From Verticillium longisporum (Eukaryota; Ascomycota; Sordariomycetes; Glomerellales; Plectosphaerellaceae), in assembly GCA_019188255.1 (NCBI GenBank), contig JAETXT010000012.1:310001-374000 (forward strand): DNA of 64,000 bases, in the 5' to 3' direction. A program made the translations under genes and the position numbers. The first letter of the stretch is position 1. Each line of letters opens with the position of its first letter. The notes beneath the pieces are model-generated. The model saw nothing but the letters and a program-made list of their open reading frames with translations, was not told the origin of the DNA and searched no databases. Below, piece after piece: positions 1-59,929 of the stretch.

Positions 1-159
1 CAATTCGATTTCTTTTTCTAAGCCCGCGGCTAGGCGACACACATGGCATATAAATCCAACTAGCTCTGTCCGGTCAGCTCTATCCATATTTTCCCTTCCA
101 CACGAACGTCTTCAGACATAAATCGTCCCCTCAGATTGCAATCACCATAGATAATCGAT

Positions 160-1720
160 ATGGCCTCTGCAGACAATCTTCAGCCGGACGCCGATGCGTC
201 TAAGCCACTTTCGGATTGCGTTGTCGCGGTCTGCGGCAAGTTCAATCGAACTCATCAGCAAGTTGAAAAGGACATCAAGACGCTTGGAGGCAGCTACAAG
301 AAATCCTTCTCTAAGAAGCTCACCCACCTCATAGCTACCCAGGAGTCGTACTATTAGCCTTCCAACCTTGTCGAGAAGGCCAGAAAGCACAACTGTGTGA
401 TCGTCGACATGAAATGGCTAGAGGAGTGCTTTGATTCCCAGTCGAAGACGGACACCGCACCTCACCTTCTTGGTCAGCAGGACGAGAGCGACCAGGAAGA
501 GTCCGGCAGTCAGTCCGGCGACTAGTCCGGCGACTAGTCCGGCGACCAGTCCGGCGACCAGTCCGGCGACGATCAGAGAGCAGACGAGCGGCACGAGAAG
601 GAGAAAAAGGTCCAAATCCTGCGAAATGCTTATATTTGTGTCATTGCCACTCCCAAAGGCCAAAAAGAGGAGCGCATCAAGAGCGATATCCGCGCCTTGG
701 GCGGACAATACCAAACGGCCATCACGAAGAAGACCACCCACCTCTGTGCGTCACAAGACCAGTTCGATAGCCTCCATAAAGACATCGTGCGTGCGCGTGA
801 CAAGGGCATTCCCGCTGTCGACCTGTCGTGGTTAACCAATACGCTCAATTTAAAGCAGGTCATAAACACTGATAGTTATGTCCTTCGAAGTGGTAAGGAG
901 ACGAGGTCAAAAGGCAGCCAGAGGAGAAGCAAGTCCCCAAAGCACAATGGAACGAGCGACGAGGAGAGCAGTGAAGAAGATGAAGAGAGTGACGAAGAGC
1001 AGTACGGATCTCCTGCCCGTTCAAACACATGGAGATCGAAGAAAGGGCGCTTGGCAACTCCGCTAGACTCTGAAGATCGTCGATCCACCATACCCGCTAA
1101 GATATCCGATCTATTCTAGAGTACCAATACGCAAAGACTCCTCGCCATGCCCCTACATCCACCCAAGAATCAAGACAGGGCTGGGAGTACTTTCATCGAG
1201 CTTATGAGCGATCCGGACTAGAAGACTAGTGGGAAAAGCAAACCACTAAAAGGGGAGATCCGAACCGAAGTGAACCAGGGACAGCTTTTGGTTGTAGCAC
1301 TAGGGAAAAACGACGAATATCCGGAAGCCATGAGAGCCTTTCTCGTTCAGGGCAGTCGCTATGCTAGACACAAGGCAAGCTTCCAGCAACTCGGCCGACA
1401 AGCGATGAAGTCCGGCACGAAGACTGACTTTCCTTAACTGACGCTGGACAAAATGAACGTCGTTCTAGTGGCATCCAATGAAGCTGAGTCGGTGTCCGTT
1501 GTGTTGTTTCTGGTTAAGGGTACGCAACACCTGCAGCTTGCTTCTCGCTTAGCTCTGAACGAGATCTTGGGCAATAAGAAGGGAGATTAAATCGTGATTG
1601 GGAAGAGGCGAATAGCTGGACAGGGTGTTCCGAAGAAGATGAAGCCAGTCGAGGTTTCGACCGAAGTGTGGGACATGCTCGAGAGGAAGAGCAACGGGAG
1701 GACTTCGTCGGCCGGATAAG
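160..1720 (+). pseudogene. BRCT-domain protein, nonsense-riddled copy
   Basis: This is the left-arm counterpart of the gene at 46446-44848. The ATG at 160 opens a BRCT domain (CVVAVCGKFNRTHQQ, then LGGSYKKSFSKKLTHLIA) and runs into TAG at 355. Further stops follow: two TAGs in the Ser-Gly-Asp repeat near 520-537, then TAG at about 1117 and 1218 and TAA at about 1435 and 1588. Several correspond to Gln (CAG/CAA) or Trp (TGG) codons in the right copy. A second BRCT (NAYICVIATPKG, then LGGQYQTAITKKTTHLC) spans roughly 627-860. An acidic linker and a C-terminal region of unknown fold follow. The reading frame is otherwise preserved, so damage is mainly by substitution. A TATAAA lies at 49-54. Confidence 0.85.
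500..573 (+). repeat. 12-bp coding minisatellite (Ser-Gly-Asp repeats)
   Basis: About six copies of agtccggcgacc lie inside the BRCT pseudogene. The copies with tag instead of cag differ by one C>T. The same segment in the right arm (about 45999-46078) encodes a similar Ser/Gly/Asp linker with degenerate units, so the repeat predates the duplication. Confidence 0.85.
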
Positions 1721-1852
1721 CTCGGAGGGGTGTCGCTGGGCGATGCATCTCGCGTGCCATAAGAAACGTGCCGTATTGCGAGTAGTGCTGAATTTCGTAC
1801 ATTGTTTCTGTAAGCCACGCAAGTACTTGCCTCTTTTAGTATCACGAATAAG

Positions 1853-1927
1853 GTGTCTGGGCGTCTGATGTCTAGGCGTCTGATGTCTGGGCGTCTGATG
1901 TCTGGGCATCTGACGTCTAGGCGTCTG
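1853..1927 (+). repeat. 15-bp tandem repeat downstream of BRCT pseudogene
   Basis: About five imperfect copies of gcgtctgatgtctgg. It is non-coding on the plus strand; open frames on the other strand (Arg/His/Gln/Thr/Pro repeats) are by-products of the repeat. I found no equivalent array in the right arm. Confidence 0.8.
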
Positions 1928-2369
1928 AACACCATGCTGCCGATGCTCGCTGCATATCTGTGTTATTCTTGTTTCTAATGAAACATCGGCAATCCGTGAG
2001 ACCCTTGGATCACTGGAGCGCCTGGGCATGCCTACCCTGGGCACCACCTTAGATCGGAGCTCTGAGTGGGCAAGTGGTTACCCTTATTCCACTCGTCGAT
2101 CCCACAAGCTTGGCAGGTCTTGCAGAAGTGACGTCTTCTTGTTCCTATGCATACATTTCTCTTTCTAGAGAGATGTAAGATGTCTATTCTTGAATGTGTT
2201 GTTAGTCTACAGTTTGGGGGGTCATAGATCGTCACTGAGCATGTCCACGCGCTTTCCGAAGCCAAGTTATATAAAGTTCTATCTACTCCTTGTTCACAAT
2301 CACGTCTGCTAGAGGCCAGCCCTTCGGATTTTCTTATATGTGAACGCCTACTTCTTCCGAAAAAGGCTG

Positions 2370-2889
2370 CTTATCGCGAAGAAAGATAGGACTTCTTCTC
2401 TAGCCGCGCTGGCTCAATGTGGACCTCCTAATCTAGAAGGCGTAGTAGATCTCTTTCTATCCCGTTTACATCTTACTTTGAAAGCCCGAATATCTACTGC
2501 TTTCTTTTAACAATTCGACTGTGAGCAGCCCAATTTCTGTTAGAGAACGAGCGATCTAATAGGCACTTGTTAGCATTTATTAGACAACCTAAGACAAAGC
2601 CATGATTTGTGCACCTCCGGCCACGTCTTTGTATCTGTTTTGCAAATAGTTTCCCAATCAAGAGGCGAAGATAGATCAGCGATGCCATGAGTTCCAGAGG
2701 GGTAAGCCGAAAGCATTTCACGAGATGGGTGATGAAGGCTTCCAGCGAGGGAGGATTCAGGTCGCCCGGGCGAGCAGGGTCGGCGCATCACGGTGTGTCA
2801 CGGTAGAAGAAAATGCGGTTACGCAGGGCAACGATGTCCTTGGTGACTTTCTGGCTTTGAAACTAAACGAGCAGGTCGGGCTAATTCAT
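2370..2889 (-). pseudogene. Pho80-type cyclin, RIP-damaged copy
   Basis: Left-arm counterpart of the cyclin-like gene at 43677-44232. The aligned start ATG at 2889 is followed at the third codon by TAG where the right copy has CAG, and another TAG replaces TGG a few codons on. The cyclin core remains readable (FITHLVKCFRLTPLELMAS, then RRGRRCTNHGFVLGCLI), as does the tail near 2400 (a TAG replacing the Trp of LLDW, then IEPARL). Cyclins of this group pair with a Pho85-type kinase; this copy cannot encode a full product. Confidence 0.7.
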
Positions 2890-3315
2890 GTTGAGAGGCT
2901 GGACCAGGTGCACGATAGCGCAGGCACTTGGATGGACGGCAGAGCTAGGCTTGTTTATATAGGTCGGCGCCGGACTATGGCCATTCTGACAATTTTGTCT
3001 CTAAAACCTGTTTCCTCGTTTAGGTCCGCCTCAAGTCCATGTTCGTTCTCCTTCGGATATTCAGAACGAGCCTATGCGATCGGGAATGTCCTAAGTTCGC
3101 CTGCATTTACACAAGTGACAAGCCAATTCACGTCACAGGGACATGAGTGCCATTTTGAGGACTATGGCTTCCTCACACACGGAGCAGGATATATTGCGGC
3201 GAACCGGCGTGGCCAGAGCTTTGCGAGACCGGCTTTCCGGTCCAGGCACAAATGAAGGAGACATGTTCTTCCTTTCGTGCTGAGGCCCCTGCCGACTCAC
3301 CTTCCTAACCTGACA

Positions 3316-3732
3316 ATGCGCGTTGACCTGGTCATCGTGGAGAGGTCCGTCTCGCCCCTGTCATCAGAAGATGGGGAAGAAACCCAATTATGGCCACGAC
3401 CGTTGGCGTTGCCTCCATCGCGCTCCTCTCAGAAGCTTCGGGGCTGTTCTGAAGCGACGAGGGATGCAAAGATCGAGCGTCTTCGCAACGAGAACAACAA
3501 TTTAAAGCAAGAGATCCACGTATTACGTAATAAGCAGCGCAGCGATCACGGTCGCCTGGAAGTCCTGCGCGAACAGGGAGGTTACCAACGGCAGGTGCTT
3601 CGGGAGCAAACCAGGGAGATAGCGGAGGCCATCAGCGTTGTGGAAGAGGTCTTTCTCGAGTATGAAGCCTGGGTGCGACGGTCGATGGGCTCTAGATCAT
3701 CCACATCCCGAATGGATCTTTTAAGCTATTAG
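3316..3732 (+). CDS. Coiled-coil protein, bZIP-like helix, function unknown
   Basis: A 138-residue frame from ATG 3316. Residues about 50-120 form a charged heptad helix (KIERLRNENNNLKQEIHVL) that would make a coiled coil. It resembles the leucine-zipper half of a bZIP protein, but I see no clear basic DNA-binding region. The N-terminal third is Pro/Ser rich. It lies between the cyclin pseudogene (opposite strand) and the F-box gene (same strand). The right-arm version at 43246 has lost single bases in two G runs and is out of frame after about 85 residues, so here the left arm has the better copy. No known function is assigned. Confidence 0.55.
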   Translation: MRVDLVIVERSVSPLSSEDGEETQLWPRPLALPPSRSSQKLRGCSEATRDAKIERLRNENNNLKQEIHVLRNKQRSDHGRLEVLREQGGYQRQVLREQTREIAEAISVVEEVFLEYEAWVRRSMGSRSSTSRMDLLSY

Positions 3733-4436
3733 CCGCTTATCAGCGCACCTCGTCTGCTATACGTGGTGAGCAGGGCGAGAAGTGATTACTCTTCGGATGC
3801 GGCTCGTATGACACGTTAGCAGTTAGATTACTTAATGCAAGCGCCTGCCACAGAGATTGGAAACGAACCTCGCAATACAGTTTAGAGTGAGTCCACGATC
3901 AAATGGAAGCAACGCAATATTCCTGCCTGGAAACTGCTTTTCGGCTTTGGGGCCCGTCCAGCATCGGCCATGCGTTGATTGGAATAGGAGCAATGAAAAG
4001 AAGAAAGCCATGAATCAATGCTCAATAGTCTAATTTATTCTAACGTTCTGCACGGCTTGAGTCTCTACAGTGCTGTGGCCATGTCGTGCCAGGCTGCGCA
4101 ACCGCGCGGCTATAGTGTTCGCTCGGCGGGGGAGTCCTTATGTCGGATTTGGCCCAGGGTGCCGCTATGCGTGCGCCCACCGACACGCGCTGAATAGCGC
4201 ATCTCATCGGCACACCGCGACCTCATATGTCCACTATGACTACCTCCATAGCCGATAATAAATTCTGATAAGTTCATACTATAGTTCAGAGAAACCCGAA
4301 ATCACATATTGCTTTTATCGGAATTGTGGCTGTCCAGGGTGAGCCTAACCAGGAGAGGTACAACGGCCATATTTACACCACTATGCGTCTCCGCCTTCGC
4401 TGAATTGCGGCCAGCCTGCGTTCACCCGCCCTCGCC
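3733..4436. other. Intergenic, no gene seen
   Basis: Holds the upstream region of the F-box gene. Short stretches match 42100-42900 in the right arm (for example the Cys/Arg-coding stretch near 4080-4200). I see no supported coding region; the 62-residue frame at 4070 has no recognisable content. Confidence 0.5.
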
Positions 4437-5354
4437 ATGGAAGGGATGCCCTATGAAATCATTAGCGAGTTCGTCTCGTATCTAGACTCGCGAAGCCTTC
4501 TCAATTTAGCACTGACTGCTAGTCGCTTCACGCATGTCTGCTTGTCCGAGGCTTCGCGTCACCTCTGCGTGCTCGATACCCGTTCGGCGCTGATAGGCCT
4601 GGCGCACCACATTAAACAGACAAGTCCGCCCACACGAGCTCTCACGGTGTATCATGGGGAGTGGCCGAAGTGCAACTACAAAGAATGGGAGCTTCACCCG
4701 CTCCAGGTGTACGAAGCGCACCCTGTTGTGCTGCAATCCCTGTCGAAGAAGGAAAAGGCTTTGCAGGCCTTCCGCCGCTACGGCCACTTTGTAGCGGAAG
4801 AAGAGTCTCGGGGTCGCGACGATGACATCCGTCGATTGAACCAGATTCTAAGTTCTCTCCCACAGCTCCAGCGGATCACAATCTCCCATATCTGTTCCCA
4901 TGGGTGGAAACCAAAGAAAAACGCCCAAGTCACCCGGCTATGTCAACAGATCTGGATATCACCGTGCCGGAGAGACTCGGTCGATCGACTCGTTGGTGAT
5001 TTTCTGATAGTACTTCCCAACTATGGCCGCGTCCAGGATTTGAAGATTAAAGGCAAACTGAACCTTGAGTCGATCGGCCCTCTATATACGGCGTTATGTT
5101 CCGTGACCAAACTCGACATCAAATCGTTGAACATAGCAAACACCACTACTGCAATATTCAATTCCTTCTTGTCTTTGTTTCCCGCTTTACAAAACCTCCA
5201 AATCAACTTCTGCCGCCACGATCCACTAACCGTTATCCCTCTCGATCACGTGCACTGTCCTGAGCTTCGCTCGGTATCTCTCGCCAACTTGCGTGTGGCA
5301 GTCCTCGCGTTAGTACGGTTCATGCAGCGACACCCTGCCATGGAATTATTATAA
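4437..5354 (+). CDS. F-box protein (left copy, truncated tail)
   Basis: A 305-residue frame beginning with an F-box (MPYEIISEFVSYLDSRSLL, residues about 4-40), the Skp1-binding module of SCF ubiquitin ligases. Leu-rich segments further on (LPQLQRITISHI, FPALQNLQINF, CPELRSVSLANL) suggest degenerate leucine-rich repeats for substrate recognition. The frame stops at TAA where the right copy (42087-41110) has CAA (Gln). Beyond the stop the frame stays open to TCTTTCTAA-like sequence near 5488, matching a tail that is also shifted out of frame in the right copy. The ancestral protein was therefore about 45 residues longer. About 80% identical to the right copy by eye. Either a slightly shortened functional protein or an early-stage pseudogene. 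Confidence 0.75.
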   Translation: MEGMPYEIISEFVSYLDSRSLLNLALTASRFTHVCLSEASRHLCVLDTRSALIGLAHHIKQTSPPTRALTVYHGEWPKCNYKEWELHPLQVYEAHPVVLQSLSKKEKALQAFRRYGHFVAEEESRGRDDDIRRLNQILSSLPQLQRITISHICSHGWKPKKNAQVTRLCQQIWISPCRRDSVDRLVGDFLIVLPNYGRVQDLKIKGKLNLESIGPLYTALCSVTKLDIKSLNIANTTTAIFNSFLSLFPALQNLQINFCRHDPLTVIPLDHVHCPELRSVSLANLRVAVLALVRFMQRHPAMELL

Positions 5355-5796
5355 CTTGACGAGGCAACGCTGGTGAACGGCCACTGCGTGTTGTACTACC
5401 CGCGCAGCTGGTTGTTTGGGATCAACTCTAGATTGACGCTACGGATAACGGGTACTGCCCCGGCTCCCGGTGGTCCTACTAGCTTCTAAGTGGGTACGTC
5501 GGACACGAGTCCCATGCAGATACATGGCAGGCCGGCAAGCTATTGGTAGAACCGAGACGATTCTCGGCTAATACTAAATCGCAGGGATACGCTCGCAGGC
5601 TGCAGAGACATGATAAAGACAGGCGAGAATGAAGCTTGCGTAGAGAGCGTGCAGATAAGTAACCGACGAGTCGGAAAGTCTTGCGACAATATAAGATAGA
5701 GGAAGAGTGTGTGCAAATAGACGAGCTTATATGTACATTAAATCCGAAACAAGTATACCCTTGAAAACCATCCACCTCAACCAACTGGATCGTTTA

Positions 5797-6535
5797 AGTC
5801 TTGCGTTTTGTAGTCCTGTCAAAATAAGCAGCTTTCTGCTTCACCCACTTATTAGCACTAAACTTCGACGTGATTTCCCGTTCGCAAATAGCCATGGCTT
5901 CCGAACCACGCATATCACGAAGCTGCACTGTTTGAGGAGTCCAGGTCACTACACAAGTCATGGATCCGTCTGGGTGCAGAGTGAAGTCTTTGTACTCTTC
6001 CACGTCGAAAATACGGGATTGGCTAAGCTTGACACCCTTCATGGCATTTAGTCGCTTCGGCTTTGGCTTAACCAATGATTCTTTGGTGCGTCTTTTGAGA
6101 CGGGATCGGGTAGTGTCGGGCTTCAAATATGGTAACGCTGGTAGGAAGATTGTCAGTGCGGACTCTTCCCCTCCTATGCTTCATGCGACGTCACTTACAT
6201 GCTTGGTTTGGTTCGAAAGGAGGCTGCAGGTCAGGGTGGAGAGATGGATTACTAGGTATGGCTCCAGTCTTGCCACTATCGAGCAGATCACGCTCGGACG
6301 TAGCAAGCGTCGCTATGGCGCTGAGAGATAGCCTGCCGACTGCTGCACTGGCCGACTTTTGCCCTGCCTGCTTGTCGAGCGAGACCGCTCGTCCGACCGC
6401 ACGATGGGCATTGTTGGGGTTGCCTAAAGACTGCACGGAAGTAACCTCGATGGATCCGACATGGGGGCGCGTGACATGCTTCTCCGTTATAGCAGTTGTT
6501 TGATGAGGAGCGTTCAACGTTGCCTAAGAGCTCAT
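5797..6535 (-). pseudogene. Chromo-like protein, broken copy
   Basis: Counterpart of the two-exon gene at 39952-40741. The aligned ATG at 6535 is followed at once by a stop (Met-Ser-Ser-TAG). The rest of exon 1 is recognisable at 6517-6191. Exon 2 (6126-5797) keeps the conserved C-terminal domain (DGSMTCVVTWTPQTVQLRD, then GSEAMAICEREITSKF). A TATAAA equivalent to that of the right copy lies near 6630 on the minus strand. The C-terminal half is under-damaged relative to the N-terminal half, so a shortened product from a downstream ATG cannot be excluded. Confidence 0.65.
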
Positions 6536-7457
6536 GGCGTATACGTTAGTCGTTGAACAGGAAGGGTTTAAGGAGGAGCTATGCCAAGAGAATAATGAAT
6601 GATATGAAGTACGGGAGATGCCTTCGTTTTTATAGACGAGATTCTGCAATGAGTAAGCCACGCTTCGTTTGGTTTGTCCCTCGGCCAGCCACTCGCCCAT
6701 TACGTCACTATTTTCATAAACGTTCCGTTGTTTATGGGTCAGGACGAACGACGGCACGTCCCTAGTGCCTTGGGTAGTAGTGGCCAGAGGCGCAAGCACG
6801 GTAAATGCGGTGGCTTTCGAGGAAGACTACTTTGGATGTCAAGACCAATTTGCGGTGTGGTCCCGGAAGGCCTCGTCAAGAGACAGCTGCGAGCAGGCAC
6901 AACGTTCACAAACACACCGTACGCGTAAGAGCCATTCACGCGCTAGAGGTCCGCAGATTTCGGGGCTCAGGTTCGGGAGTTTTATTACTATATAACCTGT
7001 GAAGCACCCAACGCGCCCCCCAGAGCCTGAATCCCAACAGCATCCGCCTCATAATTACGGGCCCCTGAAGGACATCGAAAGTCAGGATCCGGAGCTGCCC
7101 TAGCGATAACTCATGTATGATAGCGCCGACTTCAACTCATAGCAACGCTGCACAGTGAGGAATGGAGAGCCTGGCATAGTTTGGACGAGTGACGAGGCAA
7201 ATCCTCTAGCGCCGCGCCCGGTATAGGAGACCAGTCAAATACACCCGAGTCCCGCACAATCGTCGGCAAGGCTGACCTTGGGCCTCGACTACTTGTCGTG
7301 ACTCGATATCTTGGGGGGCACTCTTCTCTCTAAGCGCGAGCTTCCTATCATTCACTTGTCGCATGCCTTCTTCGCCCCAGTTCTGCAATTTGGTGGCCCT
7401 ATCCGTCTGGCCCTCGCCTGATGTCATTTGCGTGCAACGTATACGCTTGCTTGATGC
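6536..7457. other. Intergenic between chromo-like and MADS-like copies
   Basis: Contains the upstream region of the chromo-like copy, homologous to about 39800-39950. I see no supported gene; the several 60-80 residue frames on both strands lack recognisable domains and are not conserved in the right arm. Confidence 0.5.
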
Positions 7458-7888
7458 TCATTTATCAACAACATGATCATCGAGCTCTTCTAGCAGCACG
7501 TATCCTTCCACATCATGCTTGTCGTCGTGAAGCTGCGCCGAGGTAGAGAACATGCTGGGTATAAATATCTCAGGAAGCGGGTAGGTTCGAAGCTACGAGC
7601 AGTCAGCCAGGTACGACATATCTCGAAAATATCCCGGCTCACGATCTCGTCCTTCGTAGGCGTAAATGATGCCTAATCCGGCTCGCTAGTAAAGACCCAT
7701 GTACGGTGGTTGTATTCGATGAAGGTGTAAACCTTGGCTTGACAATCTCGCGATAGATCATGCGCCCTGCGCAAGAACGTCTTGCGTCGCTTGGAAAACT
7801 TGGTTGCGGCACGCTTACGGCTTTTGCGGATTTCCTCTGGGTCGTACGGCTTCAAGAGGGACGGGGTTATCTGCTAACGTTTCGATAT
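7458..7888 (-). pseudogene. Small MADS-like protein, broken copy
   Basis: Counterpart of 38574-38998. The ATG has become ATA (7888-7886) and an early Gln codon is TAG; another TAG at about 7675 ends the MADS-like exon. The core is intact (KSRKRAATKFSKRRKTFLRR, then AHDLSRDCQAKVYTFIEYN). The second exon aligns at about 7590-7458 after an intron at the same place as in the right copy. CpA/CpG to TpA-type changes explain the losses. Confidence 0.75.
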
Positions 7889-8171
7889 GCTATCAAGACT
7901 TACGCGACCGCGATGTTACAGGGCGTCGTGCTCGCGATATGAAAGCTGCCTATTCCTTCGCCGATATCCTACTTCGTATTATACCTCATACACAAATATA
8001 GATATCGGAACACCTTGTTCAATGTTGGAAGTTGTTTCGAGCAAGGGAAGGCAAGCGCTGGATGCCGCTTCGCGCTCGAATTTAAGCGCCAGGATGCGGT
8101 TCGATTTCAAATCCAATAGAGAAATACGGCAGATAACGTCCTCTCCAACCACTTCAACCACCCTATTGGAA

Positions 8172-10909
8172 TTACACCTGTGTACTCTTTCTCCCTCCAC
8201 CCATCCCATCAAGCCCGACTGCCTCAGTTTCTCTATTAGACTTCTTGCGCCCCGTCTGGCCCTTGTATCCATGCACTTCCCAAGTGTATTCGCGCCAATA
8301 CTCTATTCCATTGATCAACGCTTCCACGCCGGCAATTGTGCATTCTGGGCAGGGAAAGGGCTCATTGAAGAGGCCCTGCGCTAGGTGCGCCGAGTTTATA
8401 TGCCTGGAAAACGCATGGCCGGCAGCGAACTGTCCCTAGCAGAGCTTGCATTCTACCTTTGGAAATGTTTTGAACTGACGAGATCGCCCTGATTTGACTA
8501 GCGGCGACTGCCGAGGGCTATATGGTGAGTTGTGTTTCCCGTGGTATCTCTCAACATGGGTGCTCCATTCAGACTGCCCATCTATGATGCGCTTTCGTTT
8601 ACCCTGCGACTTAGACAAGCATTCCGGGCAGAAAAACGTTATTCGAAACGTCTCTTTATGTCTGCGCTGAACGTGTCTGCTCAGACTATACCTGCTGTGC
8701 ATTGGGCCACAACCGAGCAGACAGCGAAATTCTGTAGTCAAGTTGGCTCTCGTATGCTTCTTCATGGGCAGCAGTGGCTCAATTGGCGGCCGAAGGAAAA
8801 GCTGCTGTTCTTCCTCCTTACTAATACCATGATTCGTCGATATTGTAGTCGACATTCTTTCGAGGTGCTCGACCTCCGAAAATCTATTTAATAGGAAAGC
8901 CATAAGAATGTCAATGTATTTTATTATAGTCAGCGTGTCGCTTTCCGAGCATCGTAACATGTAGCCGCTGAGTTGCGTTGCAGCTGCTGAACTGGTAGTA
9001 TAGCGTCCTGCTTTCTGGCTCGTCTTTCTGTTAACGAGATGCTCTGTTGAATATCCCTTGGCCCTCAGCTTGTCGGCCTTAAGAAAGTATTCTTCACGAC
9101 GTTGCAGGACTTAGAGTCTCGACAGTGTTGCCACGATATAGCTACGCTGAGATGCGATCCTCTATGCATTCTCCCTATCAGCTGATGTTTTACGTAGGAT
9201 CTCATTAAGTTGCTTATCGAGCTCTCGTATATCTTTCCGTATGTTCTATCTTGCGTAATCCTCCAGCTGCGGATCTATGGGCGCGTTATCATCACAGGTG
9301 AGTAAGGAATACTAAAGAAGTCCGAAAATAGGTTCGTTCTTTTTCAAAATAGTAGGAAAGGCGATAGCAGCTAGGTTCTCTATTATATGAACTAGTTAAT
9401 AGCTTTTTCGGAATACAGACTCCGTGTTCGAGATGACGTGGCTGCGCAATGCCGGCGTCAAGGCTCCTAAATCTATTTAGCTTATTGTTCTTCGTGGCCA
9501 TTATAAGGACAGCACGTCTTACCATCCAATCGTCCTCCCGCGCCTACGCGCATGGAGTAGGGACGATCTATTCTTCGGCAGCCCAGGACAAGAAGAGTAC
9601 GCTGCTATATCTGACTGAACTTTTGGGGCGATATCTCGAAGATAGGGCGTTCTAGCATGGAATTTTTCCACGAGAGTGGTATGGATCGGAGCCCTTGCAG
9701 CTTTAGCACCGATAGTATCTCGAAAGCCGAACGGTACTCTCCGCTGAACGCGTTATCGGTGAGAGCCTAGGCAACGATCAAGCTTGACAGGTCGACAAGA
9801 AGGCAAGGTATGAATGTCACACTGAATGATAGCCTGGAAAATCGAAAGTCAGCAAGAAGCAAGTGCCATATACGAATAGAACGGCCTGACTTGTGGTCTT
9901 GACTATTCTTCACCTTGTTATGTCGTTGTTTGTTGTGAAACATAGTCGGCGTGGCTACAAGTCGTGGCTTGTCTTCGCATGAAGGGTCCTGTACCAAATC
10001 CAACCTGATTTAGCTGTACCGAAAGCGTAACAATGTCCCTTGACGAAAGCCTCCGATGGCTATCATTAGAATTACAAAGTGAAAGGCAATGCGCTCGGAT
10101 GCGGTGCAGGGGATATCGTCTGCCCGTCGCCACAATGTCGACAGGATCATCAAGACATCTTTATCTATCATCTCTACCTTTTCGAATGTTTATTCTCGAC
10201 GTAAGCCTAGCGAATCTATTAACCCTTCTCGGATCCACTAGCGGACTCTGACTTCAGCACACATTGTATGAAGGGCTGTAGAAAGCAAATCTGCGACTTA
10301 CTAGACTGATCTTGGAAACTGGTCCTGTACTACGCTCTTTCACCGCTAGCGTCCAGTGTCTAGCGTTCCTCGGATCACTTCTCCGTTTTGCCTAGAGAAC
10401 TTGTTCGTCGGCATACCTCACTAAACCTTTCCATGCTTCCAAGACCGTCTTGGTGCAGGTCACAGTCCTTACATCGTCATACTCTTGCGGTCCCAGAGCG
10501 ATTCGTTGCTCGACTGAGTAGACGACATAGTCTTGAAGAAAGGCCTGGCAGTATTCTATCGCTTTGAAACTTTCGTCGCAGAGCTGAAGCCAGATATCAT
10601 CCGGATCCATGCCTAGCACGTTGCGGAAATAGCTTTAGATCGGCTCAGCATTCACTTATGGTCGTTAGATCAATCAAGGCGAACTTACATTTGCCACTTT
10701 TGAAAAATATTCTGCCGTTGCTTCCTCGTCACGGCAGCAACTGATGCCCTATCGGAGATCGGTTCTGCGTTAAACTGGGCGAAAGCTTCACGGCTTTTTC
10801 GCTGTCGCTCCTAACTCGTCGAAAGATAGTACAGTGGTCCGACGCGAATGGTGGTCGCCCCAGGTGCCATCCCAGGTAGCTGGGGGGCTGGAGGGAGGAT
10901 GGAAGACAT
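8172..10909 (-). pseudogene. DUF3435 captain-like tyrosine recombinase, RIP-degraded
   Basis: Counterpart of the intact gene at 35557-38298 with the same exon order. Exon 1 starts at ATG 10909 and contains a TAG near 10820 where the right copy has an Arg CGG (CpG to TpA). Exon 2 is readable at about 10635-10392 (MDPDDIWLQLCDESFKA). The catalytic exon (about 10260-9700) is heavily substituted. The zinc-finger tail is open at 8960-8436 and then hits TAG where the right copy has CAG (CKLC-stop-GQF), continuing to TAA at 8174-8172. The gene is transcribed inward from the arm boundary at 11670, about 760 bp away. It cannot encode a working recombinase. Confidence 0.85.
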
Positions 10910-11998
10910 GGCGGCGCTCGCAGTGTACCAAAGCCAAGAGTAGAGATAGTACCGAATTGTATAAAGTCTGAAGTGAATAATTAACGTAGGAGATCTAGAA
11001 GAGCGCCTGTGAGAAAGGCATAAGAAGAGAGGTCCGAAATACGGACGCCAAACAGGATGCCAGATGCTAGCAGCATGGAAATGCTGGATAGAAATGCCGG
11101 ACGGAAGGAAACGGGAAGGAGGGCGCCGTAGTCAAGACGGATAGTGGGTGGCATGAGGCGGACAGTGTATTGTAGTCTATGAACGACGGGGTGCGGCATC
11201 TCTTTTATCCCTGCCAGTTGCACCCGAGACCTTATGCCTCACCCTCTCGCCTCACAGTTGGAAGGCCATGTTAGCATGTCATCAGGCGGGTTCGAATGGT
11301 ATTCGTCAATCGCAGCAGGGATGATCATGGTTCGGTTGTGCGCATCTACGCTCTTCCTGTGCTGAACAGAACGCTTCGAGGTCAGGCGCCTACTGCAACC
11401 CGTTAAGGCGGCGAGCTTGTCTCCCCAAAGAGCTGCACTGTTCGCCCTTCGGCCAACAAGCCTGCGAAACGCTCGCTAAGGTACAGCGTACTGACAGTGC
11501 GGCTTTCATTTTGGCCACTATCCATCTTGATGGTGTCCAATGATGGGCCCTCAAGACAGACGTGACAAAGCCAGGTATGTGGCCGCTTTGAAGCACATGA
11601 ACCCCACCCATAGATCCGCCCAGGCGCGAGTTCGCATACTAAAGTTCAATTGAGACCATCTAAATCCGCACTTCGCTCAATGTCGCGTCCAGTATATTAA
11701 ATCGCGCCTATAATCCCGAAATCGAATATCCTCCCTTTGCGATCCATCCGGGTTTGATCGTGGACCCTGGATATCCAAGTACTTATAAGTACATGGAAGG
11801 TACCTACATTACATATAGATAACTGACCGGATTCAATTTTGCATGCGACATGAACCGAGAACTGCAGGTGACGCGAGGACGAAGCGCGCCGAATATTAAA
11901 TTAAGCATGCTGGAAACCCTCGATACGGAGAATTTGAGCGCACTCTCGTACAGCGTCCGCGTCCCACGGATACCCGCACATGCCAGCCGGGTAGTTTT
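10910..11998. other. Captain 5' flank and arm boundary
   Basis: Bases 10910-11670 are homologous to 34775-35556 upstream of the right captain gene. From 11671 to the Copia insertion at 11999 there is no match to the right flank and I see no gene. Confidence 0.6.
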
Positions 11999-12244: not shown

Positions 12245-12274
12245 ACGAGCCGCTGCGCCGGACGACGATACGCG

Positions 12275-17264: not shown

Positions 17265-17297
17265 CAGTTTCCACCTGCGAGGCCTCAACTGGGGGTG

Positions 17298-38298: not shown

Positions 38299-38573
38299 TC
38301 CCAATGCTGCTATTGTACAAGATACCATCCGTGGTGCCTTTTTGCCATATTTGAAATTGAACCACATGCGGGCGCTTACAAGCCGAACACGAAGTGGGGT
38401 CCCGCGCTTGACTCCCCTTACGCAAAATGACTTCCAGCAACAAGCAATGAGGTCCGCCCTCTGTATGTATGTGTGATATATAATACAAAGTGGGATGTCT
38501 GCGAAAGAAGTAACAGTTTTCGCACGACGAATAAGCCGCCCTATGAAGTTGCGGTCGCGTTCGCTTTGACAAC

Positions 38574-38998
38574 ATGTCCGAACGCCAGCAGATCACGCCG
38601 CTGAAGCCGTACGACCTAGAGGAGATCCGCAAAAGTCGGAAGCGTGCAGCCACCAAGTTTTCCAAGCGCCGCAAGACGTTCTTGCGCAGGGCGCATGATC
38701 TGTCGCAAGATTGTCAGGCCAAGGTGTACACCTTCATCGAATACAATCGTCGCACATGGGTCTTTACGAGCGAGCCGGATCAAGCGTCATTTCCGCCTAC
38801 AAAGGATGAGATTGTGAGCCGAGATGCTTCCGAAACAGGCCATACCTGACTGACTGCTCATAGCTTCGAATCTATCCGCTTCCGGAGATATTCATACCTA
38901 GCATGTTCTCCACCTTGCCTCAGGTTCACAACGACAAGCATGACGTGGTAGATTCCGCGCTGTCAGACAGGTTTAACACTCATGCCGCTGATCAATGA
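38574..38998 (+). CDS. Small MADS-box-like protein
   Basis: Exon 1 is 38574-38813 and exon 2 is 38864-38998. The 50-base intron (gtgagc...ctgactgctcatag) joins in phase 0, giving 124 residues. Residues about 18-65 (KSRKRAATKFSKRRKTFLRR, then AHDLSQDCQAKVYTFIEYN) match the MADS/SRF pattern: a basic helix with FSKRRK, then a hydrophobic strand and VFTS. MADS domains bind CArG-type DNA as dimers. There is no larger transcription-factor body. The exon 2 peptide (RIYPLPEIFIPSM) is conserved in the left-arm pseudogene, which supports the splice model. It lies 275 bp downstream of the captain gene on the same strand. A regulatory role is inference. Confidence 0.75.
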
Positions 38999-39851
38999 AC
39001 ACCAAGCAATCGTAGGGATTGCAGACGAATGCCGCCAATCGTTCGACAGAGGCAGTTTGTATGGCGGGCTGGGCAATCGAGTGAGGACCAGACCGATAAG
39101 TCCATCGGATTGCGGAACTGCGGTGTAGGAGGCACGCGACAAGAGGAACAAGAGAACTCGCGCACAGCAAGAAACCCCCTCGTATCTTCCCTCCTCACTG
39201 AGATATGACGTGCAGTCGAGGCCCACTGTCGCCGCTGCCGACAACTATGCGGGAGTCGGATTGACCGGTCTTTCATGGCGGGCGCGGTGCTGGAGGATCT
39301 GCCTTACCGCTCGTTCAAGATAGGGCCAGGCTCTCCGTTCTTGTTTGATGCCTGTTACTTCGAGTTTCGAGCTCCAATCAGTGCCACCACAAATGAGCTA
39401 GCGTCGGGGCCGCTCTGTATGTCGGCTTCCGATATCCTCCAAAGGCTCGTAATTATACGATGGTTGTTGTTGGAACCTGAGATTGTAGGATGTTTTGTCT
39501 GCGTCACAGAGTATATCTCGGGAATAAAGATTTTCAACTTCGGCCACAAGCTCTGTGGCACGTGGATAGCTCTGACACAAATAGATGTTTACCGACATTG
39601 TGCTTGTTCGCAGTTGAGTCTTCATGAGGCCCTCTGAAACTCCTCGCAGACTGGTTCTGGCATTCAGAGAAGGCTACCTTCAGCGTCAGTGGGAGTACCA
39701 CACTCGTGCCCCTGAACAGCACTACCCGATGCGCTAGGGGCCTGCCGTCGTTCTCTCTTGCTCGTGAGTCGATGAGAATAGTGACGTGGTGGCCACGACT
39801 AGCTGAGGGACAAAGTGAGGGAGCGTGGCTGACTCATCGCAGAAAACTGTC
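38999..39851. other. Intergenic, no gene seen
   Basis: A 120-residue plus-strand frame at 39275 and minus-strand frames at 39398-39625 have no recognisable content and no clear left-arm equivalent. Confidence 0.4.
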
Positions 39852-39857
39852 TATAAA
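39852..39857 (+). promoter_or_regulatory. TATA box of chromo-like gene
   Basis: TATAAA 95 bp before ATG 39952. The surrounding stretch, including TATAAA, is conserved upstream of the left-arm copy. Confidence 0.55.
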
Positions 39858-39951
39858 TACAGTGCCTTTCGCTTCCCCTTTACACAGTTCATCATCCTCT
39901 CCCCACAGCTCCTACTTCCACTCACCCTGTGCAACGACGAGAATACACGCC

Positions 39952-40741
39952 ATGAGCCTGTGGAGCACTTTGCACTCTCCAGGCGAGAGGCCTGCAGTCC
40001 CTAGTCCAACAACTACCGCAACGGTTAAGCAGGCTGTGCAACCACACATCGGATCCGCCAAGGCTGCTTCCGTTCGGTCTTCAGACAACCCCGACCATGA
40101 CCATCGTTCAGTCGGTCAAGTGGTATTGTTCGCCGAGGAAGCGGTGCAAACGGCGACTAGTCCAAAAGTCAGCAGCCTGACCCCCGATGTGGCAGCCCCT
40201 GCCGCTCTACCATGTGGCCTGCTCGAAATCGGCAAGACAGTAGCCACTCTCAGTGACGCATCTCCACAAACTGATCTTTCAGCTTATCACAAACTAAAGA
40301 AAGCACGTAAGTGATGTCCCATGAAGCCTCACAACGCAGCGATGAAGAAGGGTCTGTAGTGACAAGTTTTCCCCACCAGCGTTGTCGCGGTCGAAGCCGG
40401 GCTCTGCACGATCCCGTCCTACAAAGCGCGCCAGAGAATCATCGATCGAACCACAGCCGCAGAGGAAAAAAGCCCCGAAGGCTGTCAAGCTTGACAGATC
40501 CATGGTTTATGACGTGGAAAATCTCACAAACTTTGCTTTCAGAAACGGCACCATGTATTGCAAGGCTGAATGGGCTCCCACAGAAGTCCAGCTTTGTGAT
40601 GTAGTTGGAGACGAAGCAATGGCGATTTGTGAACGAGAAATCACATCGCGATTCGGGGCTGACGTATGGGCGAAGCAGAAAGCTGCTTGTTTTGACCAGA
40701 AACCAGAAATCCAAGATGTAAACGATCGGATCACGTCCTAA
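39952..40741 (+). CDS. Chromo-like domain protein, function unknown
   Basis: Exon 1 is 39952-40306 and exon 2 is 40380-40741 (intron gtaagt...caccag, phase 1), about 238 residues. The N-terminal half is low-complexity Ser/Thr/Pro. A basic patch (RPTKRARESS, then QPQRKKAPKA) could be a nuclear signal. The C-terminal domain (VENLTNFAFRNGTMYCKAEW, then EAMAICEREITSRFGADVW) resembles chromo or chromo-shadow folds in its strand-Trp pattern, but I am not certain of the family. Left-arm conservation of this domain, against a diverged N-terminus, suggests it is the functional part. Confidence 0.65.
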
Positions 40742-41109
40742 TTGGGTGAGGTGGATGGGTTTTAATGGTACACTCGTTTTGGATTGTATGTACAGGCTTG
40801 TTTGTTTGCGCACACTCTTCCTCTATTCTAGGTTGTCAAAAGATTCTCCGACTCGTCGGTTTCTCACCAGCGCGTTCTCTGCGCGAGCTCTATTCTCGCT
40901 TGTCTTTATCATGTCTCTGTACCTTACAGGCGTATCCCCGCAATTTACCATCAGTCGGAAATCCTCGCCTCGGTTCTACCAAAACCCTGCCGGACTACCG
41001 AGTATCTACATAGAGTTCGTGTCCAGCATGCTCACTTAGAAGCTAGTAACGCCACCGGGATCCGGGGCAGCGCTCGTTATTCGTAGCGTCAATCTGGAGT
41101 CGATGCTAA

Positions 41110-42087
41110 CTAACCAGTCGCGGGGTAGCACAACACACTCCGGCCGTCCACCAGTCTTGGCTCGTCAAGTTGTAACACTTCCAAAGCAGGGTGGCGCTGC
41201 ATGAACCGTACCAACGCGAGGACTCCTACATACATGTTGGCAAGAGATACGGAGCGAAGCTCAGGGCAGGGCACGCGATCGAGAGGAATGAGAGTGGGCG
41301 GATCGCAGCGGCTGAAGTTGACGTGGAGATTTTGTAAAGCGGGAAACGAAGACAGAAAGACATTGAATGTTGTTGCAGTGGTGTTTGCCATGCTCAATGA
41401 TCCGATGTCGAGCCTGGTCACCGAACGCAGCGCCGCGTGCAGAGGGCCGATGGACTCAAGCCTCAGTTCGCCTTCAATCTTGAGATCCTGGATACGGGCG
41501 TAGTTGGGAAGTATTGTCAAAAAGTCACCGACCAGACGATCGACTGAGCCTCTCCGGCCCGGAAATAGCCAGATCTGTTGGCACAGTCGGGTGAGTTGGG
41601 CGTTTTTCTTCGGTTTCCGCGCATGGGAACAGGCATGGGAGATTGTGATCTGCTCGAGCTGTGGCAGAGAACTCAAAATCTGGTTCAGTCGACGGATGTC
41701 TCCATGGCGACTTCTAGACCCCTCGACCGCTACGAAGTGACGATAGTGTCGGAAGGCCTGCAAAGCATTTTCCTTCTTCGACGGAGACTGCGACACAAAA
41801 GGGTGCGCCTCGTACACCTGGAGCGGGTGAAGCTGCCACTCTTTGTAGTCGCACTCCGGCCACTCGCCGTGATACACCGTGAGAGCTCGTGTGAGCGGAG
41901 TTGTTTGTTTGATGTGGTGTGTCAGGCCCGACAGTGCCGAAAGGGTGTTGAGTACGCAGAGGTGACGCGACGCCTCGGACAAGCAGGCATGGTTGAAGTG
42001 ACTGGAAGTCAGTGCCAAATTGAGAAGGCTTCGTGAGTCTAGATACGAGACGAACTCGTGGATGATCTCATAGGGCATCCTTTCCAT
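41110..42087 (-). CDS. F-box protein (right copy)
   Basis: 325 residues from ATG 42087. An F-box at residues 4-40 (MPYEIIHEFVSYLDSRSLL) would bind Skp1 in an SCF ubiquitin ligase. Downstream Leu-rich segments (LPQLEQITISHA, FPALQNLHVNF, CPELRSVSLANM) suggest substrate-binding repeats. The frame ends at TAG 41110, but homology with the left copy continues in another frame to about 41040 (SRLTLRI, then a TSF end). Either a small net deletion near 41115-41125 shortened the protein by about 30 residues, or the assembly lacks a base. It is convergent with the chromo-like gene. Confidence 0.8.
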   Translation of the reverse strand: MERMPYEIIHEFVSYLDSRSLLNLALTSSHFNHACLSEASRHLCVLNTLSALSGLTHHIKQTTPLTRALTVYHGEWPECDYKEWQLHPLQVYEAHPFVSQSPSKKENALQAFRHYRHFVAVEGSRSRHGDIRRLNQILSSLPQLEQITISHACSHARKPKKNAQLTRLCQQIWLFPGRRGSVDRLVGDFLTILPNYARIQDLKIEGELRLESIGPLHAALRSVTRLDIGSLSMANTTATTFNVFLSSFPALQNLHVNFSRCDPPTLIPLDRVPCPELRSVSLANMYVGVLALVRFMQRHPALEVLQLDEPRLVDGRSVLCYPATG

Positions 42088-42859
42088 GGTAAAGGTGGGT
42101 GAACGCAGGCTGGCCCAATGCAGCGAACCCGCAGGCGCACAGTAGCGTAGATATGGCCGTTGTTGTTCTTCTCCTGTTGAGGCTCATCCCGGATAGTCGC
42201 AATCCTGAACAAAGCATGGTATGAATCTGCATTCTGAGTTTCTCATGGACTGTAGTGGGAACCTGTCCGAATTTATTGTCGACTACCTAGGCAGGCACAG
42301 TGGACGGATGGGGTCATCGCGGTGTGTCGATGGGATGCGTCATTCAGCGGGCGGTGGTGGGTGCACAGTGGCGCACCCCGGGTCAGATCCGACATGAGAC
42401 TTCCTCGCTGAGCGAACACCATAGCCGCGCGGTTGCGCAGCCGGGCACGAGCTGGCCACAGTAAGGCAGAGACCCAAGTTGCTGCGGAACGTTGGAATAA
42501 ATCAGATTATTGACCATTGATTCGTGGCTTTCTAATTTGCACTGATCCTATCTCTCCCGACTAACGCATGGTCGACGCCAGGCTGCACAGGCTTGACCGG
42601 CCGCCCCCAAGGACAAGAAGTAGTCTCTGGGCGGAACAATGCATTGGGTCCATCTCATAGTGGATTAAAACCAAGCTGCGTTACGATGTCCGCTTGCAAT
42701 CTATATGGAAGATGACGTTTGCTGTGATTGAGTATTCTGACTGCTGATTGTGCCACGCAAGCCGCATCCGAAGGAGAAGCACGTCTCGCTCCGCTCACCA
42801 TATACGGCAAATGAGGTCTGAGGACGAGCAGCTAACTGCTTGGAGGATCCATTCAGGGT
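42088..42859. other. Intergenic, no gene seen
   Basis: Mirrors 3733-4436; no supported frame. Confidence 0.45.
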
Positions 42860-43246
42860 GAAGATACCCCGAAGCCCATCGACCTTCGCACCCAGTCTTC
42901 ATACTCGAGAAAGACCTCCCCACTACGCTGATGACCTCCGCTATCTCCCTGGTTTGCTCCCGAAGCACCTGTCGTTGATAACCTCCTGCTCGCGCAGGAT
43001 TTCCAGGCGTCCGTGATTACTGCGCTGCTTGTCGCGCAATGTGTACATCTCTTGCTTCAATTTGTCGTTCTCGTCGCGAAGACCCTTGATTTTTGCATTC
43101 AACGCCGCTTCGAAAGAGTCCTGAGGCTTCTGAGAGGAGCGCCGTGGAGGCAACGCCAACGGGCGTGGCCATAACTGAATTTCTCCCTCATCTTCTAATA
43201 ACTCAGGTAGAACGAATCTCTCCGGAACGGTCATGTCAACACGCAT
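42860..43246 (-). pseudogene. Coiled-coil protein, frameshifted copy
   Basis: Counterpart of the intact frame at 3316-3732. From ATG 43246 the sequence matches for about 85 residues (NAKIKGLRDENDKLKQEMYT, then HGRLEILREQ) and then leaves frame where one G is missing relative to the left copy (about 42982-42986). A second one-base loss follows at about 42917-42921. The rest of the helix is readable in the other frames. Both losses are in G/C runs, so either genuine decay or assembly error is possible. Confidence 0.65.
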
Positions 43247-43676
43247 GGTGAGGATGGGAAGGTAAGTCGGCAGAGATCTCAGGATAAAAGAGAGGCAATG
43301 TCTCCTTCATGCGTTCCCGGACTAGAACGCTGATCAAGCTGGGCATCGGCAATACCGGCTCGTCGCAATATATCCTATTCCGCACATTCGGAAGCTGCAG
43401 TGTTTATATTGGCACTCATGTGCTTGTGACTTGAATCAGCTTGTCGCTTGTGAGTATGCAGGCGAATTTCGGACTACTCGACCGCACAGGCCCATTTTGA
43501 ATGTCTGAAGGAAAATGAACATGGAGACGAATCTAAATGAGAAAACAGATATTGGAGGCAGAATTGCCTAGGCCGCTGTGATCTGGCCGCTGCCGGCCTA
43601 CATAAAAAGCGACACTCTGCCGTCCACCCATGTTTCTGCGCTATCACGCACCTGATCTAGATTAGAACCTTTCGGC

Positions 43677-44232
43677 ATGGAGCAGTCCGACGTGCTCGTG
43701 TGGTTTCAAAGCGAGGGTGTCGACGAGGACATAATAGCCCACGTAGCCGCGCTTGCTTCTACCGTGACATACAGTGATACGACAGGGCCTGATGCCACTG
43801 TAGCTGCTTGTGCGGAGGACCCAGATCTCCCTCGCTAACAGACTTCATCACCGAACTTGTGGAGCGCCTTCAACTGACACCTTTGGAACTTATGGCATCG
43901 CGGGTCTATCTTGGCCTCTTTATCGATAAATTGTCCGAATTCGGGATAAAAAGACGTGGCCGGAGGTGCACAAATCATCTCGTTATCTTGAGTTGTCTGA
44001 TGGTTGCCAACAAATGCCAACGGGATCACGCGTTCGATAATCAAGTCTGGACTACCGTAAGTCAAATTTACGAAGGCGATCGGCAGATATTAGGGTTTCA
44101 GAAGCACGAAGTAAACATGGGCGAAAAAACCTGCTGGCCCTTCTGGATTGGAAGGTCGACATTGAGCCGGTGCGACTAACGGAAGAAGTCCAATTTTACT
44201 TGGCAATGAGCGACTTTTCACAGATGAAATAA
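43677..44232 (+). pseudogene. Pho80-type cyclin, frameshifted
   Basis: Core cyclin box (FITELVERLQLTPLELMAS, then RRGRRCTNHLVILSCLMVAN) with an intron (gtaagt at about 44058, ending tttcag at 44100) and tail (NLLALLDWKVDIEPVRL) to TAA 44230-44232. Cyclins of this group (Pho80/PCL) activate Pho85-like kinases in nutrient and cell-cycle control. The ATG at 43677 aligns with the left copy but is in a different frame from the cyclin box, so a small unrecognised intron or indel lies before 43848. The A6 run at 44124-44129 is one base short of the frame needed for LLDW. Called a pseudogene with reserve: one or two base corrections would give a full gene. Confidence 0.6.
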
Positions 44233-44847
44233 TGTCTTCGCATGTTCGCTGAAGAAAAATGCGTCAAATTGTAGCGTTCAAGGAAATTGAGAAAGCTGGC
44301 CTTCAGTAGACGTACGTTCGAAAAAGTGTGGACCACTACTCAACTTGGCTTCTGAAAGTGCGTGAGCATCCGTAGTGACTGTTAATGGCCTCCCAGACGG
44401 CAGAAAGATACAAATTAAAGAACGGACAGATCACATTACCCTAGGAAAACTGATAGTTGGAAACGAGAAGACGTCGTTTCTGCAAGATTTGCCGGGCTCG
44501 TGTGATCCATGGGTGGAACAAGGCAAACCTCTTGCCCTCCTAGAGTCGAACTTGTCATAATTTCATGTCCAATCAATGTCATCATACTAATACGTTTGAA
44601 TGATGAAACAGTCCAACGTAATGCTGACTCTTGATGAGGAACATTAACAACAATAAAAAGCAGCGAGCATCAGTAGCACGGTGTTTGGACAGGCATACAC
44701 GTTATTCGCGACTTTCGACGGATGACGGATGAGGACTTGCGTGGCTTACAGAATCAATGTATGAGATACAGTACTACTCACGATACGGCACCTTTCTGAT
44801 GGCACTCCAGATACTTCGCCCAGCGACATCCAAGGAGCCCAAACAGC
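44233..44847. other. Intergenic, no gene seen
   Basis: A 61-residue frame at 44375 has no recognisable motif and no clear left-arm equivalent. Confidence 0.4.
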
Positions 44848-46446
44848 CTACGAAGTCGCCCCGTCGTTCTTCCTCTCAAGCATGTCCCACACTTCAGGCG
44901 AAACCTCGATCGCCTTCATCTTCTTTGGAACATTCTGTCCGGCCAATTTCCTCCTCCCGATCACGATTTGATCTCCCTTCTTATTGCCCAGGATGTCGTT
45001 CAGAGTTGTGCGAGACGCAAGCTGCAGATGTTCCGTACCATCAACGAGAAACAGCACAAGGGACACCCTCTCGGCTTCATCGGATGCCACAAGAACTACA
45101 TTCATCTTGTCCAGTGTTATTCCCGGAAAGTCAGCCTTCGTGCCTGACGGCATGGCTACTTTGCCGAGTTGCCGAAAGCTTGCCTTGTGTCCTGCATAGC
45201 GACTGCCTTGCACGAGAAAGGCTCTCATGGATTCCGGATATTCCTTGTTCAACCCAGGTGCTGCAACCAGAAGCTGCCCTCTGTACACTTCGGTCACGAT
45301 CTGCCCGTCGAGTGGTTTGTTTTTCGAGCCCGTCTTCTGGTCCGGATCGGATACAAGCTGGATGAAACTACTTCCAACTTGTGCCGGATCCTTGGGCGGG
45401 TGCAGGGGCATGTCGAGGAGCCTTTTCGTATTGGTGCTCCAGAACAGACCCGGCTTCTTAGCGGGTGTGGTGGATCGACGACCTTCGGAGTCCGGCGGCG
45501 TTGCCATGCGTCTGTTCCGTGCTCTGTGCGTGGTCGAACGGGTAGGAGGCTTGTGCTGCTCTTCGTCACTCTCTTCCTCGTCCTCACTGCTTTCCTCTTG
45601 GCTCTCTCGATTACTCTTTGGGGACGTCCTCCTCCTCGGGCTGCCCTCCGACCTCGTCTTCTCGCTGCTTCGAAGGACGTACTTGTCAGTGCTTTGAAGC
45701 TCCTTCAAGTAGAGCGTGTCGTTGAGCCACGATAGACTGACGATAAGAGCACCGTTGTCACGCGCATACAAGATGTCTTTCTGAAGGGTATCGAATTGGC
45801 GTTGCGATGCACAGAGGTGGGTGGTCTTCCTTGTAACGCTCGTCTGATAACGCCCCCAAGGCGCGGATCTCCTTTTTCAACTGCTCCACGTTTTGGTCTT
45901 TAAGAGTGTCAATCACACAGATGTACATGTTTTCAAGGATTCGGCCCTTTTCTTTCTTCTTATGCCGCCCATTTTTTCTCAGATCGTCCTCGGATTGGTC
46001 GCCGGAGCCGTCGCCAGAGTTGTCGCCAGAGGCGTCGCCAGAGTCGTCGCTAGAGTCGTTGCCGGACTCACTGATGGCATCGTCGCCGGTCTGACTGTCG
46101 GAGATGTCCTCTTTGCTCTCGGCCTGCTGCTCGAGAAGGTACGGTGTGGTGTTGACCTTCGACCCGGACTTTGAGCACTTCTCGAGCCATTTCACATCGA
46201 CGATTTTACAGTCGTCCTGTTTTTGGCCTTCTTAACAAGGTCGGAGGGCTTATTGTACGACTCCCGGGTGGCTATGAGGTGCGTAATTTGTTTGGAGAAG
46301 GATTTCTTGTAGGTGCCTCCAAGCGTCTTGATATCCTTCTCGATCTGCTGGTGTGTTCGATTGAACTTGCCACAGACGGTGATAACGCAACCGGAGAGCG
46401 GCTTAGATGAATCGCCGTCCGTCTCACCTTTCTGCTTAGGGGCCAT
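44848..46446 (-). pseudogene. Two-BRCT-domain protein, frameshifted
   Basis: ATG 46446 (MAPKQKGETD). BRCT 1 (SGCVITVCGKFNRTHQQIEK, then LGGTYKKSFSKQITHLIATR) should end in VDVKWLEKC but leaves frame at an A5 run (T5 on plus, 46220-46224) one base short. The next frame carries that end, the Ser-Gly-Asp linker and BRCT 2 (NMYICVIDTLKDQN). It is shifted again at the C5 run 45853-45857. The last 307 codons (45771-44848) carry the BRCT 2 end, an acidic linker (EESSEDEEESDEE) and a conserved C-terminal region of unknown fold. BRCT domains bind phosphoproteins, usually in DNA-damage response. No nonsense codons occur, in contrast to the left copy. Two base corrections would give one frame of about 530 residues. 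Confidence 0.75.
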
Positions 46447-46535
46447 ATTGATTGTCTGTAGTGAATGGAACCAGAGGGGGCAAGTTGTGTCTGACAATTT
46501 TATGATGAGAGTCAACCTGGATGGAGCTGCGTGGG

Positions 46536-46541
46536 TTTATA
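46536..46541 (-). promoter_or_regulatory. TATA box of BRCT gene
   Basis: TATAAA on the minus strand 90 bp before ATG 46446; conserved at 49-54 in the left arm. Confidence 0.55.
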
Positions 46542-46600
46542 GGTCGATTGCGTTGCCTCGCAGCGAGCCCAGAAAAAGAAAACGAATTGTGGAAAGCAAC

Positions 46601-59911: not shown

Positions 59912-59929
59912 ACAACGAGAAAGTAGGGC

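Follow-up and report, generated by a model that had tools for sequence, protein, structure and literature searches.

Head-to-head Starship-like elements, probably of one family, in Verticillium longisporum

Starships, the giant transposons of the Pezizomycotina, span tens of kb, occur in several copies and carry near the 5′ end a captain, a DUF3435 tyrosine recombinase gene that reads inward. Cryptons and solo DUF3435 genes likewise have a tyrosine recombinase gene, and large shared cargo is not expected of them. We analyzed 64,000 nucleotides of Verticillium longisporum (hereafter the window; C4:310001-374000, C4 being contig JAETXT010000012.1 of assembly GCA_019188255.1, with a genome of 72.0 Mb in 16 contigs), in which two elements, A and B, each with a captain gene, face each other; positions without a contig name are those of the window. 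According to the accessible parts of the respective accounts, TTAC(N7)A is the canonical target of Hephaestus, chromatin-type cargo is given for Janus elements (both PMC12153272), DUF3723 and ferric reductase are among the genes prevalent in Starships or of note (PMC12134995), and Verticillium Starship regions show segmental duplication and nesting (PMC12289983). It is probable that A and B are members of one Starship-like giant transposon family, one dead and the other apparently intact, arranged head to head, and the best reading is that this Starship-like family is previously undescribed. Its membership of the Starships is likely.

The original prediction, made from the letters of the window, proposed two captain-bearing Starship-like elements face to face. 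This proposal is well supported, because the elements have a common 5′ terminus with different flanks, six of ten junctions with TTAC(N7)A, a captain that reads inward and is the first recognizable gene, ferric reductase cargo and several copies; the coordinates, a separation of 23 kb and block ends at 34775 and 46600 had to be given up. The locus also resembles Starships with a Hephaestus-type target in its size of tens of kb, a DUF3723 gene nearby, relatives decayed by repeat-induced point mutation (RIP) and nested mobile elements. It differs from them in that A and B abut 5′ to 5′ at 18 bp, and in its MADS, cyclin, BRCT and F-box cargo. Among the literature matches listed, no paper pairs Starships with a head-to-head arrangement, none joins Starships or DUF3435 with MADS-box, BRCT or F-box cargo, and cyclin cargo was likewise not met. 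Segmental duplication and nesting are common to this locus and the Verticillium Starship regions, for which the accessible text describes nesting, not abutting 5′ ends (PMC12289983).

The self-comparison aligned window 112-11670 with 46494-34775 in inverted orientation, the pieces being 75.2-77.8% identical, and tblastx recovered a mirrored order of DUF3435, MADS, chromo-like, F-box, coiled-coil, cyclin and BRCT frames, so that the predicted inverted pair of mirrored genes is borne out. The best self-match has E = 0, which excludes chance, and the block is also present at other loci. When 50 kb were added on each side, the homology extended to C4:288811 in A and to C4:374155 in B, with pieces of 75-88% DNA identity; the outer edges first placed at 1 and 46600 thus merely reflect the window edge, because the match of A to B continues into the added flanks. 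Nor are the inner edges at 11670 and 34775 element ends, since homology in A resumes at 17762-18723 (64-66%), beyond the retrotransposon LTR1 described below, and the inner flank of B (31881-34774) recurs on C13, C11, C7 and C4:734k, up to an abrupt junction at 25184. A 5′ end of B at 34775 was therefore ruled out, as other loci continue further inward. A and B diverge by about 23% in the inner block. To separate RIP from divergence, transversions alone were counted: they amount to 2.3-3.9% between B and the copies on C13 and C1, and to 7.2-9.3% (block) and 5.6% (one outer piece) between A and B.

The arms are colinear over about 30 kb, as might be expected if one element had been inverted and duplicated in place long ago and had then diverged, rather than two having arrived. 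We consider this very unlikely, since the 5′ parts beyond 18723 and 33356 have no significant similarity to each other and match different sets of loci, and since the 3′ sides of A and B differ.

The ends themselves were located with window 24191-25964 as query. Its 12 matches comprise, besides the window itself, six loci that share a start, two that share an end and three short nearby pieces. All six of the former start at query position 994, equal to window 25184 (C4:733395, C11:5028191, C7:1409302, C2:1152250, C2:828065 and C13:783184), and the other two end at position 975, equal to window 25165 (C11:5226051 and C4:866278). Common start points could reflect a breakpoint of the query, and therefore the letters were read at five ends, namely those of A, B, B′ (C4:733-775 kb), the C7 locus and C4c (C4:832-866 kb). 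TCGGAG stands at the boundary in all five, next to four different flanks, one of them shared by B′ and C7: GTGAGGG|TCGGAG in B, TTACGTT|TCGGAG in B′ and C7, ATCATGG|TTCGGAG in C4c and TTACAT|TTCGGAG in A, the last lying in TTACATTTCGGAG on the minus strand (25171-25159). Because four flanks meet one terminus and the ends lie at 25165 and 25184, A and B face each other across 18 bp. Element A (1..25165, minus strand) reads leftward from its 5′ end at 25165 and continues outside the window to at least C4:288811; element B (25184..64000, plus strand) reads rightward from 25184 and continues to at least C4:374155; and the spacer (25166..25183, 18 bp) provides the TTAC of the A junction. The two 5′ ends thus do face each other as predicted, at 18 bp instead of 23 kb, and the interval from 11.7 to 34.8 kb consists of the 5′ parts of both elements together with later insertions, comprising two Copia-type long terminal repeat (LTR) retrotransposons, a high-copy repeat and a miniature inverted-repeat transposable element (MITE).

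TTACNTTTCGGAG, which fits TTAC(N7)A, is present at six of the ten known 5′ junctions: those of A, B′, C7, C13a (C13:783-806 kb) and both C2 loci. Across the 72 Mb it has 11 sites against 9 for a reversed control, a count that is no more than chance; six of the 11 lie exactly on junctions, a placement that is not chance.

In both copies the DUF3435 gene is the innermost and is transcribed into the block, as first described; its position as first gene inside a homology boundary at 11670 or 34775 fell with that misplaced boundary. The captain of B (35557..38301, plus strand) has an open frame of 856 amino acids and matches PF11917 with 62.2 bits. Its gene model was built from splice motifs (exons 35557-35777, 35828-36164, 36229-36943 and 37001-38301), with three introns of 50, 64 and 57 nt and an alternative first acceptor 6 nt further on; an interpretation as a pseudogene with in-frame stops was dropped, since the introns restore the frame. 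The protein has R251, Y413-x-x-R416 and Y447, and a C-terminal BED/C2H2-like finger that scores under the Pfam cut-off. These residues resemble the active site of the Sanctuary captain as given in the accessible text: the arginine-to-tyrosine spacing of 31 equals that of R427-Y458, whereas the first arginine lies 162, not 164, residues before the first tyrosine (PMC12506042). The first 639 residues had no solved-structure match at E up to 1. The distance from the 5′ end of B at 25184 to the captain at 35557 includes 6.2 kb of later insertions and shrinks to about 4.2 kb after subtraction of LTR2 and the MITE; the six frames of at least 80 amino acids that overlap 31881-34780 are all shorter than 100 amino acids and were outside the family scan. 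The captain of A (8166..10909, minus strand) is a pseudogene with 13 premature stops when read on the B frame, nine of which are RIP-type, and one of the others lies at the first splice join. Between the two captains, synonymous divergence (dS) is 0.55 and nonsynonymous divergence (dN) 0.18, a ratio (omega) of 0.33. Judged by the 13 stops in the captain of A and the open frame of that of B, A appears dead and B is possibly functional.

On the 3′ side, C4:374001-376500 as query had 13 matches, of which A, C4:832138, C4:67396 and C13:1353187 stop at query position 154-155 and C11:4517553 at 162. Past that point the sequence continues in B, B′, C4:294, C13:845533-848090 and C11:4677228-4679994. 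Since A and C4c share sequence beyond the point at C4:374155, it was rejected as a proven 3′ end; the shared stretch amounts to 1.56 kb in A, C4:830571, C4:65840 and C13:1354742. There are thus two 3′ modules, because copies of the A type share sequence past the point and those of the B type carry on. A 3′ end of A at C4:287249 was also rejected, given that a DUF3723 gene follows it after 1.59 kb in C4c and after 1.60 kb at the C4:67k locus. DUF3723 is found outside the window, past the shared 3′ point by 3160 bp in C4c, 3158 bp at the C4:67k locus and 3201 bp at the C11:4517k locus. On the 3′ side of the B type there are an HlyIII gene and, at C4:379931, a second DUF3435 gene.

Several of these results weigh against captain-driven elements as the explanation. 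Four of the ten junctions are without exact TTACNTTTCGGAG, namely B and C4c by reading, and C11a (C11:5.01-5.03 Mb) and C11b (C11:5.21-5.23 Mb) by absence from the pattern-match list. B′ and C7 agree at 27 of 28 bp upstream of the terminus, and the N of the motif is the same at five of the six motif junctions (three read or shown as G, C13 by pattern match only), so that these five may share one ancestral flank. The point at C4:374155 is a module switch rather than a proven end. Neither a 3′ terminus nor a terminal inverted repeat nor a target duplication of the elements was detected, and a scan of the 3′ side for CTCCGA gave no convincing site. The matches listed for the DUF3435 search do not include the captains that B′, C11a, C11b and C4c should have, and the captain of B has no lysine at the distance known from the accessible description of Sanctuary (PMC12506042). 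Near-identical long blocks on C4 (C4:555-20000 and C4:765001-784449) count on the same side. These blocks, a C13 block 99.7% identical to one on C11, the 3′ side that B and B′ share past C4:374155 and the upstream bases common to B′ and C7 could all be explained by ordinary segmental duplication: a gene-bearing accessory region would have been spread and inverted when repeats recombined homologously, and a DUF3435 gene would have been carried along as a passenger. We regard this as unlikely, since the ends break at the same TCGGAG next to four flanks, a coincidence not expected of random recombination, and since six of ten junctions carry the motif. Starship-like transposons are favored over plain segmental duplication because of this one breakpoint in four settings and because six of ten junctions have the motif. 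Further copies have probably arisen by segmental duplication as well.

The abutting ends also raise the question of an assembly or scaffolding artefact. A gap of 500 N at C4:383927-384426 is followed directly by a chromosome-start telomere repeat (to 384494), which makes the join of C4:1-383926 to the rest of the contig doubtful, and contig ends lie inside near-identical repeats. The gap, however, is about 49 kb from the junction of A and B and the window has no N; the difference of about 23% between A and B means that they are not a foldback of one sequence, and the junction fits termini seen at other loci. An artefactual head-to-head arrangement is thus highly improbable.

If A and B are Starship-like elements, each would begin with TCGGAG... 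as an invariable 5′ terminus, which in canonical copies meets the flank through a TTAC(N7)A-type site, with the captain a few kb inside and MADS, F-box, cyclin, BRCT and ferric reductase cargo behind it. We infer that the captain drove transposition: it would cut both a TTAC(N7)A target and the 5′ terminus of the element, which it would then insert with the captain-bearing end toward the target. In the order of events that we propose, A would have been disabled by RIP-type mutation, and B, with its apparently intact captain, would have come to lie with its 5′ terminus 18 bp from that of A. Because the B junction is exact at TCGGAG yet without TTAC, B may have used a non-canonical target or have been joined by recombination at the terminus. 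A more speculative possibility, rather unlikely in our view, is that the family's own 5′ terminus acts as a landing site, where elements dock 5′ to 5′ and swap captain-bearing 5′ modules, cargo and 3′ modules, consistent with two 5′ and two 3′ types in different combinations.

The later insertions lie in both elements. A contains LTR1 (11999..17523, plus strand), a Copia-type element (RVT_2) with identical 226-bp LTRs and a 5-bp duplication GTTTT, and a high-copy repeat (20865..24190, minus strand) that by eye resembles a long interspersed nuclear element and of which the one frame scanned had no Pfam match. B contains LTR2 (25965..31880, plus strand), also Copia-type (RVT_2), with identical 230-bp LTRs, a 5-bp duplication CAAGC and 20 further copies at 89% among the matches listed, and the MITE-like insertion (34223..34513, no strand assigned) with 36-bp terminal inverted repeats, a stretch that matches to B at four other loci skip.

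Relatives of the pair were traced with the F-box protein, which had ten matches. One of them, C1:5741946 (31%), was excluded, and the other nine fall on block loci. These nine comprise B, B′ (C4:741851, 100%), C11:5016693, C11:5215875 and C4:856724 (81%), A (76%, one stop), and C1:5527149, C13:819717 and C13:793599 with 13 to 29 stops each. The block on C11 was missed by DNA search because that search scores only the best candidates (14 of 19), and an idiomorph, with no block between conserved flanks on C11, was ruled out once the F-box gene was found there at 81% protein identity. The 5′ end and the F-box gene are 9.2 kb apart in C11b and 8.6 kb apart in C4c; with insertions subtracted, the corresponding spans are about 9.7 kb for B and 10.9 kb for A. 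B and B′ are 99.9-100% alike in the F-box protein and 3′ side and only 87-97% in the first kilobases, which suggests that they are not simple copies of each other. C13a shows strong C-to-T decay, with a guanine-plus-cytosine (GC) content of 21%.

Further structures were observed around these loci. C13 at about 784-848 kb has two direct element copies, C13a and C13b (C13:815-848 kb), so heavily RIP-mutated that GC drops to 21-29% in the pieces measured. The RIP-decayed copy at C1:5525493-5546000 has a break and a partial inversion around a perfect 1.5-kb inverted repeat, and another DUF3435 gene (C1:5540711-5541983) lies 1.8 kb from it. C4:555-20000 and C4:765001-784449 are 99.985% identical over 19.4 kb, also match C4:373709-383926 and include the second DUF3435 gene, and a 6.7-kb block with another DUF3435 gene is 99.7% identical between C13:1390903-1397597 and C11:4725001-4731696. 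C4:260001-267330 and 267672-275004 are the arms of a 7.3-kb inverted repeat; they are 99.96% identical and about 340 bp apart.

A Pfam scan of the B frames upheld the predicted labels in part: DUF3435, F-box, Cyclin_N and BRCT exceeded the cut-off, MADS (SRF-TF, cut-off 26 bits) fell just under it, the chromo-like frame had no match and the coiled coil none over the cut-off. Behind the captain lie the first exon of the MADS-like gene (38574..38846, plus strand, 24.8 bits, omega 0.10 against A), the chromo-like frame (40346..40738, plus strand), identified as a tblastx pair, and the F-box gene (41113..42087, minus strand, 325 amino acids, open), whose counterpart in A (about 4438-5405, plus strand) has one stop and an omega of 0.31. 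They are followed by the coiled-coil frame (42941..43306, minus strand), the Cyclin_N frame (43793..44176, plus strand), the BRCT gene in three open frames (44848..46536, minus strand), and a ferric-reductase-like gene (47559..49120, minus strand) whose N-terminal frame scores over the cut-off and C-terminal frame under it, and whose counterpart in arm A, outside the window, carries stops. Further on are a second MADS-like frame (49855..50544, plus strand, 22.8 bits, under the cut-off of 26), three BRCT frames (51311..55286; 51311-52555 and 54417-55286 on the plus strand over the cut-off, 53326-54015 on the minus strand just under), and F-box (under the cut-off) and ankyrin (over it) frames (57414..59152, plus strand). 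In 16 further comparisons of A with B over 15 gene pieces (F-box twice), which use frame pieces and not full gene models, omega was 0.10-0.63, and 11 of the 15 pieces have at least one stop in A; values above 0.5, obtained for the cyclin, coiled-coil, chromo-like, ankyrin and two of the BRCT pieces, are hardly informative on constraint. At gathering scores Rfam matched nothing, and ARAGORN, run with the bacterial code, gave no tRNA.

The cargo of this family is of a cell-cycle and transcription type, with omega below 1 between A and B, unlike the metal-resistance and virulence cargo described for Starships in the accessible text of published accounts. As a multi-copy family in one genome, whose 5′ terminus is defined and whose captain can be tested, it allows dead members to be compared with apparently intact ones. 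The 18-bp junction raises the question of whether Starships could target each other's ends, a possible route to stacking elements and trading cargo.

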